Shown here: in pieces, positions 3,036 through 37,453 of the stretch
How the letters are laid out: each line of letters opens with the position of its first letter
How positions within the stretch are numbered: position 1 is the first letter of the stretch
NCBI RefSeq assembly: GCF_900141755.1
Contig: NZ_LT670844.1
Coordinates: 310,001 to 374,000 of the forward strand
DNA: 64,000 nucleotides
DNA from: Bradyrhizobium lablabi
GTDB lineage: Bacteria; Pseudomonadota; Alphaproteobacteria; Rhizobiales; Xanthobacteraceae
Reading direction: 5' to 3'
The notes under the pieces: model-generated
What the model was told of the DNA's origin: nothing
Seen by the model: the letters and a program-made list of their open reading frames with translations, nothing else
Database searches by the model: none
Position numbers and translations under genes: made by a program

Positions 3036-3052
3036 GGCGAGCCTCCGCTGGT

Positions 3053-3164
3053 GAGCCAGGTCTATTTTGAGCCAGGTCTATTTTGAGCCAGGTCTATTTT
3101 GAGCCAAGTCTATTCTGAACGACGTCTATTCTGAACGAGGTCTATTCTGAACGAGGTCTAACCT
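3053..3164. repeat. Tandem array of seven 16-bp repeats
   Basis: Units start at 3053, 3069, 3085, 3101, 3117, 3133 and 3149. The first three are identical (GAGCCAGGTCTATTTT). The later ones drift in a graded way to GAACGAGGTCTATTCT, and the last is degenerate. The conserved core is GGTCTATT. The array lies directly upstream of the dodecin gene on the other strand. A repeat protein binding site or a replication-slippage tract are both possible. Confidence 0.95.
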
Positions 3165-8788: not shown

Positions 8789-9175
8789 GTGATTAAAACC
8801 GACCTCTCCGAAATCTACCGGGACTACATCGCCTGCTTGAACAGGCAGGACTGGCCGAAGCTGGAACAGTTCGTTCAGGATGACGTGCACTACAACGGTC
8901 GGCGGATCGGATTGTCAGGTTATCGCGAGATGCTGGTGAGAGACTTTGATGAAATTCCGGACCTGTATTTCAACATTCATCTGCTGATTTCCGATCCGCC
9001 TTATATCGCAAGCCGGCTGGGCTTCGACTGTACGCCTAAGGGAATGTTCCTTGGCCTCGACGTAAACGGAAAGCGAGTTTCCTTTACCGAAAACGTCTTC
9101 TATGAATTTCGGAGCGAAAAGATCGATCAAGTATGGTCTGTGATAGATAAGGCCGCTATCGAAGCTCAGCTCTAG
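8789..9175 (+). CDS. SnoaL-like (ester cyclase-type) protein
   Basis: 128 residues from a GTG start; the in-frame sequence further upstream is repeat DNA and is excluded. The NTF2-like pattern is clear: an opening helix (LSEIYRDYIACLNRQDWPKLEQFV), DDVHYNGRRIGLSGYREML, DIPDLYFNIHLLI-like strand and VSFTENVFYEFRSEKIDQVWSVID. SnoaL-like proteins are cone-shaped small enzymes or binding proteins; here the catalytic role is unknown. A structured element begins immediately after the stop. Confidence 0.75.
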   Translation: MIKTDLSEIYRDYIACLNRQDWPKLEQFVQDDVHYNGRRIGLSGYREMLVRDFDEIPDLYFNIHLLISDPPYIASRLGFDCTPKGMFLGLDVNGKRVSFTENVFYEFRSEKIDQVWSVIDKAAIEAQL

Positions 9176-9176
9176 A

Positions 9177-9405
9177 GCCAGGGACGGTGGCAAAAGAGCC
9201 CGGTCACCGGGGAGAGCACGAAGGAAACCGTTAAAACCATTGCGTGCGGGAATGCCGGGTTGATCCCGGTGAGCCCGTGGTGACTACTCGTGTGCTTTCT
9301 ACCTTTGCACACGAGGCTGCGGGTGCACTGGGCACCCGGCATTCCCCACGCCCTCCTGGGGCGGAAGATTCATCCAGGCCTCGGGCGCATCGCGCCGCGA
9401 GATCG
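9177..9405 (+). ncRNA. Structured dispersed element, copy 1 (3' part)
   Basis: It aligns with the 3' half of 21936-22432: ACGGTGGCAA..AGCCCGG, TCACCGGGGAGAGCACGA, CCATTGCG, GGGAATGCCGGG (9248-9259) pairing with CCCGGCATTCCC (9335-9346), an enclosed hairpin CTCGTGTGC (9287-9295) / GCACACGAG (9307-9315), and CTCGGGCGCATC...CGCGAGATC at the end. The inner hairpin differs from copy 2 by a compensatory T-A to G-C change. Transcription is not shown; the ncRNA label is an inference. Confidence 0.55.
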
Positions 9406-9421
9406 CCAAGTCATATCTATC

Positions 9422-9552
9422 CGTCATTGCGAGGAGCGCTTGCGACGAAGCAATCCAGCTTTCTTTTTCCCGGCGCCAAAGCTGGATTGCTTCGTCGCGG
9501 AGCCTGTCATCGGGCGCGCGTTCGCGCGACCCGTTGGCTCCTCGCAATGACG
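9422..9552. repeat. Palindromic repeat, family R3, with module
   Basis: Outer arms CGTCATTGCGAGGAGC / CTCCTCGCAATGACG; inner arms GCGACGAAGCAATCCAGC / GCTGGATTGCTTCGTCGC. The 43-bp module at 9497-9539 sits between the inner right arm and the outer right arm. It follows directly on the structured element, as a shorter R3 repeat follows copy 2 at 22443. Confidence 0.85.
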
Positions 9553-21796: not shown

Positions 21797-21914
21797 GTCG
21801 TCCCGGCGAAAGCAGGGACCCATAGCCACCGATGTAAGTTGTTGGAAAGCCGTCTGGCCGCAGCGCTAAACAGAGAGGCCGCGGCGTATGGGTCCCTGCT
21901 TTCGCAGGGACGAC
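21797..21914. repeat. Palindromic repeat (GTCGTCCC type)
   Basis: The left arm GTCGTCCCGGCGAAAGCAGG with GGACCCATA pairs with the right arm TATGGGTCC and CTGCTTTCGCAGGGACGAC, around a ~45-base centre containing CTGGCCGC...GCGGCCTC. It is the first of three consecutive repeats (this one, the structured element, R3) before the membrane-protein gene. Confidence 0.85.
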
Positions 21915-21935: not shown

Positions 21936-22432
21936 AGGTGATTTGCCCGTCAGGCAAAAACCTGTCCAGCCTCTTTTGCAAAAATATTTCTGTTTTTCCG
22001 AAATGCAAATCAGACTATATGATTTGCCGTCCTGTCCCACAGAGGGGCGGCTCGAGATCGTCACGGACGCGGGACAGGATGCGGTGGACGCGGATGCGCT
22101 CTTGACGAACGGCGCTGACGCGGACGGCGAAGTCGTGTGGTCCTGACACCCCGACGCTGGTGTCAAGTTCTTGAGAAGCAAGCTTCTCAGGGGCGACGGT
22201 GGCAAGAAAGCCCGGCTCACCGGGGAGAGCACGATATAAGCCGTAAAACCATTGCGCGGGGAATGCCGGGTGATTCCGGTGTGACCTGACCAACGCGTGT
22301 GCGTTCTACCACTGCCATTGCACACGCGGCTATCGGGCGCATCGGGCGCCCGGCATTCCCTGCGCCCTCTGACTGGAGGGTAAGGAAATTTATAGCAAAC
22401 CTCGGGCGTATCCGGCCGCGAGATCGTGAAAT
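21936..22432 (+). ncRNA. Structured dispersed element, copy 2 (long form)
   Basis: A ~500-base stretch with no credible gene but a chain of hairpins: TTTGCC/GGCAAA (21942-21958), GCAAATCA/TGATTTGC (22005-22027), CCTGTCCC (22031) with GGGACAGG (22071), GACACC/GGTGTC near 22145-22162, TGAGAAG/CTTCTCA near 22172-22190, GGGAATGCCGGG (22259-22270) with CCCGGCATTCCC (22349-22360) and an enclosed CGCGTGTGC (22294) / GCACACGCG (22320). The 3' half matches 9177-9405. I remember close relatives in many Bradyrhizobium genomes, but know no accepted function. Confidence 0.6.
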
Positions 22433-22442
22433 TGTATCTAAA

Positions 22443-22488
22443 CGTCATGGCGAGGCGCAAAGCCGTCACTGCGCTCCTCGCAATGACG
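22443..22488. repeat. Short family R3 palindromic repeat
   Basis: CGTCATGGCGAGG ... CTCCTCGCAATGACG with a short centre GCGCAAAGCCGTCACTGCG. It follows directly on the structured element, repeating the arrangement at 9422. Confidence 0.8.
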
Positions 22489-37290: not shown

Positions 37291-37320
37291 GATCGGCGAT
37301 CCTCCAGCTCTTCCCTACGG

Positions 37321-37402
37321 CGTCATTCCGGGATGGTCCGAAGGACCAGACCCGGAATCTCGAGATTCCGGGTTCGATGCTTCGCATCGCCCCGGAATGA
37401 CG
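37321..37402. repeat. Palindromic repeat (CGTCATTCCGGG type)
   Basis: CGTCATTCCGGG (37321) pairs with CCCGGAATGACG (37391). Inside are GGTCCGAAGGACC, CCCGGAATCTCGAGATTCCGGG and GATGCTTCGCATC hairpins. It lies between two divergent genes. Confidence 0.88.
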
Positions 37403-37453
37403 TCTTATCGCGAAGACGTTCTTGAAACGATTACCTGCGAGGTAAGGCCGGTA

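Follow-up and report, generated by a model that had tools for sequence, protein, structure and literature searches.

What is the element that stands twice in the intergenic DNA of this 64-kb stretch of the Bradyrhizobium lablabi genome (the whole stretch is called the window here), and do its hairpins act as DNA or as RNA? A preliminary description had reported two intergenic copies that share a skeleton of arms and hairpins, and these were found as described: copy 1 (9177-9407) and copy 2 (22028-22434) both lie on the plus strand, and the paired arms GGGAATGCCGGG / CCCGGCATTCCC and the hairpins CTCGTGTGC/GCACACGAG and CGCGTGTGC/GCACACGCG are found in them. Copy 1 lacks the 5' half, and its homology starts at approximately 9183, just past an upstream ORF that ends at 9175. 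The features listed below refer to A1, an alignment of 49 full-length copies of the window genome from which copy 1 was left out, and to the core model R1. R1 matched copy 2 at 22189-22371 (190 bits) and copy 1 at 9177-9357 (188.1 bits), both matches being circular because the model was built from copies of the same genome that include these two.

9177..9407, plus strand: copy 1, 5'-truncated, with the 3' domain and terminal hairpin only (homology, R1 match)
21936..22027, plus strand: variable upstream module with a -10-like TATATG (22016-22021) and without a consensus -35
22028..22434, plus strand: copy 2, the full-length structured RNA as aligned in A1 (alignment, R1 core match)
22031..22078, plus strand: 5' helix CCTGTCCC..GGGACAGG (strands 22031-22038 / 22071-22078), 5 of 8 pairs with double-sided changes
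22052..22056 with 22425-22429, plus strand: end-to-end helix, weakly supported (helix 2, 95.9% paired, 0 double-sided changes)
22145..22164, plus strand: hairpin GACACC/GGTGTC (helix 7, one pair A-U in 37 and G-C in 11 of 49 copies)
22167..22194, plus strand: the most variable hairpin, its sequence rewritten between copies and its pairing kept (helix 8, 8 of 10 pairs double-sided)
22254..22365, plus strand: 3' domain, a long helix enclosing the hairpin of the preliminary description (22294-22328) and a second hairpin (22334-22352) (helices 10-13)
22401..22422, plus strand: 3' terminal hairpin (helix 15, 4 of 7 pairs with double-sided changes)

The sequence TGAGAAG/CTTCTCA sits inside the most variable hairpin, and the 3' domain is supported also by a cross-genus alignment. 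Among the extra hairpins that had been assigned to the long copy, CCTGTCCC/GGGACAGG covaries and belongs to the conserved RNA; GCAAATCA/TGATTTGC falls outside it, on its 5' side, and is present in only some copies. A coding reading of four ORFs that run across the window copies was rejected, as they had no credible Pfam or NCBIfam match.

Other repeats were noticed in the window. CGTC-type REP-like hairpins, read by eye, lie directly 3' of copy 1 (9422-9552) and of copy 2 (22443-22488), and a 28-nt inverted repeat (GTCGTCCCGGCGAAAGCAGGGACCCATA, 96% complementary) lies just 5' of copy 2 at 21797-21914. At 3052-3163 a tandem repeat (TGAGCCAGGTCTATTT, 16-nt period) degenerates in the direction of one of its ends.

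Structure and strand

To judge the fold, we compared both strands of 22186-22440 with shuffled sequences. The plus strand folded at -121.1 kcal/mol (z -4.72, 0 of 200 shuffles as good) and the minus strand at -101.3 kcal/mol (z -2.35, 3 of 200 shuffles as good); the plus-strand fold of copy 1 had a z of -5.28 against its shuffles. RNAalifold predicted 100 pairs on A1, and 98.6% of the 4888 cells were paired, compared with only 36-56% when the partners were slid. Double-sided changes occurred in 25 pairs, giving 224 cells versus 67.5 after shuffling (0 of 500 shuffles as high, the shuffles ignoring relatedness). RNAalifold had placed a local hairpin with 0 double-sided changes where the 5' helix CCTGTCCC/GGGACAGG can form. 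Because this helix covaries, with 96.4% of 390 cells paired, it is the better choice. The same structure was followed in 57 sequences from several genera, in which 96.1% of cells were paired (in an alignment fitted to the structure) and 22 of 44 pairs were doubly changed, with 181 cells versus 54.3 shuffled (0 of 500, again with shuffles that ignore relatedness).

The preliminary description had pointed to one compensatory change, from T-A to G-C, between the two window copies. This pair, 22295-22327 (columns 305-340 of A1), is G-C in 47 of the 49 aligned copies, U-A in 1 and unpaired in 1, and across genera (columns 184-220) it takes four forms, U-A in 27, U-G in 14, G-C in 11 and C-G in 5 of 57 sequences. 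Wobble pairs bear on the strand: A1 holds 606 G-T cells versus 13 A-C cells, of 4900. Read on the other strand, G-T cells become A-C mismatches, so selection likely acts on the plus-strand RNA; a caveat is that the predicted structure came from this same strand. Covariation beyond shuffles over many copies is what marks a structured noncoding RNA family, here against controls that ignore relatedness. Altogether, the structure is conserved with strong covariation, and the 49 copies, the 57 cross-genus sequences and the wobble count strongly support the earlier proposal that a folded RNA is under selection.

Distribution, promoter and neighbouring genes

Searches of the window genome with each window copy, in which approximately 40 candidates were scored each time, gave at least 41 and at least 40 matches, and the pooled searches reached at least 59 distinct places. 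In 40 evenly spaced 20-kb stretches (10% of the genome) we found 8 strong R1 copies, besides opposite-strand echoes and one weak match (20.3 bits), which extrapolates to approximately 79 copies per genome (Poisson range 34-156). R1 matches were present in at least 41 of 119 genomes and at least 17 of 47 genera of the family sample (22 candidates scored per genome), and in at least 4 of 150 genomes of the order sample, all of the window's genus (18 candidates scored per genome); because the filters were strict and few candidates were scored, a missing match does not prove absence. Named genomes scanned with a pattern gave 42 stretches, most of them carrying the labels Rhodopseudomonas, Afipia, Bradyrhizobium, Xanthobacteraceae or Hyphomicrobiales, together with single stretches labelled Actinomycetota, Thiospirillum and Proteobacteria that may reflect contamination or mislabelling. 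One locus (L128 of G045) carries two RNA copies on the same strand, 3.6 kb apart.

From the family-sample matches we drew a set of 44 loci outside the genus. In many of them the conserved block starts with TTGACA, 16-18 bases and TATATT, often followed by CCTAT. Among the 39 loci that could be anchored (5 of the 44 could not), 26 scored at least 10 of 12 for a σ70-like promoter, compared with 0.7% of shuffles, and some loci open with another conserved start of the CTTATGTT type. In the 49 copies of the window genome the promoter score was not above chance (mean 7.35 versus 7.22 shuffled), and 2 of 49 reached at least 9 of 12, as did 6.8% of shuffles. The earlier idea of a stand-alone RNA is thus backed by a conserved promoter outside the genus and finds no above-chance promoter in the window genome, where the copies may be silent or use other promoters.

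Two further modules were observed at the edges of the RNA. Own-genome loci such as L018, L037, L038 and L043 have an upstream subtype with TTGA-N6-TCAA palindromes before the RNA, which we take to resemble an FNR/FixK box. Loci L091, L094, L103, L152 and L157 share a second conserved 3' module, CGCCCCCGCGCCGTCA.AACAACAGGGG.GATG followed by GGCTGTTTGA.A.T..AAT, the latter presumably resembling an rRNA boxA.

The DNA around the 44 loci is asymmetric. The adjoining 500 nt had less than 55% GC on the 5' side in 15 of 44 loci and on the 3' side in 3 of 44 (Fisher p = 0.0029), and the next 500 nt outwards on the 5' side did so in 17 of 44; among segments 3-5 kb away the count was 15 of 347 (p = 2.6e-8 for 5' versus far). 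The adjacent 5' 500 nt were not low in GC in the other 29 of the 44 loci. This asymmetry around the RNA outside the genus is firm. At 54 loci of the window genome there was no GC dip of note (means 0.59-0.61 upstream and 0.61-0.63 downstream); the asymmetry is nearly absent there and the copies have no low-GC neighbourhood.

The content of the 5' side is suggestive of defence. Genes found there encode an anti-phage dCTP deaminase (L123, 526 bits), RmrA (L152, 676 bits), the type IV restriction enzyme GmrSD (L144, 639 bits), a CAP12/Pycsar-type TIR protein (L132), a cyclase-NUDIX protein (L143) and a pYEATS protein (L124). The near ends of these six genes lie 262-1019 nt from the start of the core model, which itself falls approximately 200-300 nt inside the RNA gene. 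SieB (L151) and McrC (L155) are more distant, at 1.3 and 1.5 kb, and the intervening DNA has normal GC; a D12 methyltransferase (L118) stands without low GC. Other neighbours are unrecognised or not defence-specific (L131, L142, L150, L121, L149, two further ORFs of L152 and L153, and the 206-aa ORF of L162); among those not defence-specific are DUF4238 (L134), TPR proteins (L137, L146) and a ParA-like ATPase (L157). A SIR2 match at L133 stayed below the curated cut-off, and L120 is an exception with low-GC genes on the 3' side and a weak PDC-M24B match. In an unselected PADLOC comparison (E<=1e-40), the 77 ORFs of the 5' side gave RmrA, RmrT, mREase_IV, dCTPase and MTase_II types and the 84 ORFs of the 3' side one mad3 match, few defence matches in all.

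Sites, dispersal and competing explanations

If the RNA gene is mobile, copies at different sites should share the gene and little else. In several genomes the RNA lies 1.6-6.8 kb after groEL (G126, G104, G079, G132, G064) or after rpoD (G126, G079, G132, G111), at sites whose flanks are syntenic and whose content between differs (GroEL, RpoD, TopA and HigA were identified by eye from translations). Within single genomes, copies at different sites are 97.6% identical over -414..+285 relative to the core start (L140/L158), 91% over -263..+289 (L131/L124) and 95% over -200..+455 (L146/L154), and L143/L144, from different genera, are 86% identical over -381..+279. Scattered repeats aside, such copies are alike mainly in the RNA gene. 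Because they share little beyond it, the RNA gene probably moves.

A tree of the 44 loci outside the genus is consistent with movement. The groEL copies L157 and L134 fall together, and 4 of the 5 groEL copies lie in one 9-row clade that also includes copies of other sites. All three rpoD copies in the tree are apart from each other. L131 and L124, which occupy different sites of one genome, form a pair, as do L149 and L133, and close pairs span genera (L137/L153, L143/L144, L147/L151). At the site shared by L143 and L121 in two genomes the RNAs are similar and the neighbours different, and both this pair and L134/L157 show separate flank homology with different neighbours. In our reading, the tree and the pairs mean that the RNA gene arrived repeatedly, although an exchange of neighbours next to a copy that stayed in place is a real alternative.

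The preliminary description had proposed comparing filled and empty sites. The rpoD sites of G145 and G151 lack the RNA, but they differ from the filled site by more than an insertion and give no clean empty site; the groEL contig of G151 ends inside an apparent RNA copy and so is not an empty site. Integration by gene-end duplication was tried as an explanation, and at 8 of 9 sites the end of groEL, rpoD or topA did not recur. At one locus (L302 of G064), a 103-nt piece of the groEL 3' end (96%) is repeated past a low-GC tract, approximately 1.3-1.4 kb after groEL; this tract is different and free of the RNA, lies 5.4 kb before it, and is followed further on by shorter intergenic matches. The repeat suggests that an element lacking this RNA integrated site-specifically at the end of groEL.

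The explanation we favour, with rather more belief than doubt, is that the element would be a plus-strand structured RNA gene of approximately 400 nt that is spread as a unit, transcribed, and works as a folded RNA. Several other explanations account for part of the data. A host regulatory or structural RNA could be resident at some sites and duplicated within genomes, with accessory genes lying nearby through shared hot spots. Structure and promoter kept across genera agree with this, as do the same-site pairs L143/L121 and L157/L134 and the low-GC tracts that these hot spots hold where no strong RNA match is present (rpoD of G064, groEL of G145). However, no match was reported in 78 of the 119 family genomes (strict filters, 22 candidates scored per genome), and other same-site copies, such as L149 and the three rpoD copies, stand apart in the tree. 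We consider a resident RNA unlikely, though a serious contender.

The preliminary description had also raised a nonautonomous mobile element. Dispersed copies that share little beyond the RNA gene agree with this, but neither target duplications nor terminal inverted repeats were detected at the approximate element ends. As a non-autonomous DNA transposon (MITE or REP-like) with hairpins acting as DNA, the element would explain its roughly 80 dispersed copies, the REP-type repeats that adjoin the window copies and the IS1595-type transposase near 2 of the 44 loci (L153, L162). The 606:13 ratio of G-T to A-C cells and the better plus-strand fold point instead to RNA, for a structure predicted on that strand. 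The flanks held no excess of direct or inverted repeats, which were about as frequent within a locus as across loci, nor the terminal inverted repeats with target-site duplication that define a MITE, in a weak test with approximate ends, and 22026-22440, when searched by BLAST, had no counterpart among 72,556 plasmid and 50,697 phage records. The unit, at approximately 400 nt, also differs from the 20-40 bp palindrome with a GTAG or CGTC tag that defines REP/BIME sequences. A DNA transposon therefore seems improbable to us.

A SINE-like route, in which a trans-acting reverse transcriptase makes a DNA copy of the RNA, would suit a unit with a promoter, a structured RNA and no credible ORF, and copies truncated at the 5' end exist (copy 1 and L034). 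Two matches among those listed are truncated at the 3' end instead (position 179 of 244) and no target duplications were detected, which makes this route quite improbable. In the part of PMC10511110 available to us, AvcID is a single locus in which a noncoding RNA stands beside an antiviral deaminase. By analogy with AvcI, an RNA antitoxin or regulator of the adjoining defence gene would fit the anti-phage dCTP deaminase type next to L123, but is very unlikely: the present RNA family accompanies mutually unrelated proteins, similar RNAs stand beside different neighbours, the loci outside the genus have no fixed toxin partner of the kind that marks a type III toxin-antitoxin RNA, and the own-genome copies lack a low-GC neighbourhood.

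Relation to known systems and significance

OLE, GOLLD, ROOL and HEARO are large structured bacterial noncoding RNAs of unknown function, and HEARO has an Rfam model. The present RNA resembles them in its hundreds of nucleotides, its many helices and its conserved structure, and differs in having no Rfam match, in its restriction to one bacterial family in our samples, and in its many dispersed copies beside variable accessory genes. No family of Rfam 15 reached its gathering threshold in the window, and 13 loci searched in E-value mode gave best hits far below it. The model for HEARO, the omega RNA of IscB and IsrB, matched neither the window nor these 13 loci, and a search of the window genome with the IscB-type profile PF14239 gave no match, control profiles being likewise silent. 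A kinship with transposon guide RNAs, which had also been suggested, found no support in the Rfam searches. We found no description of this RNA in the literature searched, chiefly non-subscription papers, and word searches of PMC8632094 and PMC4842269 gave no mention; the approximately 400-nt RNA family is apparently undescribed.

Other repeats offer partial likenesses. Mobile/repeat sequence candidates (MRSC) are described, in the accessible portion of PMC11109978, as multi-copy structured motifs thought to be selfish and often associated with transposases, integrases, nucleases or helicases. The present RNA shares the structured motif and the multiple copies per genome, whereas an IS1595 transposase was near 2 of 44 loci, a comparison with the description of the category in that portion. 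Br-REP1 and Br-REP2 are short Bradyrhizobium palindromes with consensus lengths of 20 nt and approximately 40 nt, the second stated, not shown, to be part of a larger element (PMC5082802, from the sections at hand); they too are intergenic and structured in the same genus, but are shorter and of other sequence. The Br-REP1 consensus CCGGAATCTCGAGATTCCGG is absent from the element, its sole match in the window with up to 3 mismatches allowed being at 37352-37371. There, it occurs exactly within a composite inverted repeat (37316-37407), in which a Br-REP2-like sequence adjoins it by eye. GTAG/CGTC REPs, as far as the excerpt of PMC3733652 goes, are intergenic 20-40 bp palindromes in Bradyrhizobium and Rhodopseudomonas, compared with which the present element is approximately 10 times longer and has a structure of its own.

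Returning to the favoured explanation of a transcribed RNA gene, we infer from these sequences the following course. The gene, from promoter to 3' hairpin, would spread as a unit and enter intergenic hot spots that would also gather accessory genes, among them the ones that follow groEL and rpoD. Its RNA would be transcribed, fold as counted here, and act as RNA or as a ribonucleoprotein, probably with a protein partner, its task most likely being tied to mobile DNA and to defence loci. In the window lineage it would have multiplied to approximately 80 copies without such neighbours, behaving mainly as a repeat. It appears doubtful that the RNA takes part in antiviral immunity itself, or serves as the constant component of a new kind of mobile unit by which defence genes are collected; on this reading a promoter-driven, protein-free RNA gene with horizontal movement would mark the 3' edge of exchangeable defence genes, and the window lineage would have amplified it into a genome-wide repeat family.

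A dispersed repeat is better explained as a structured RNA gene family. Low-GC DNA with anti-phage genes in it adjoins the RNA on one side, which makes two questions testable: how an RNA gene without an ORF crosses genera, and whether its RNA takes part in defence.
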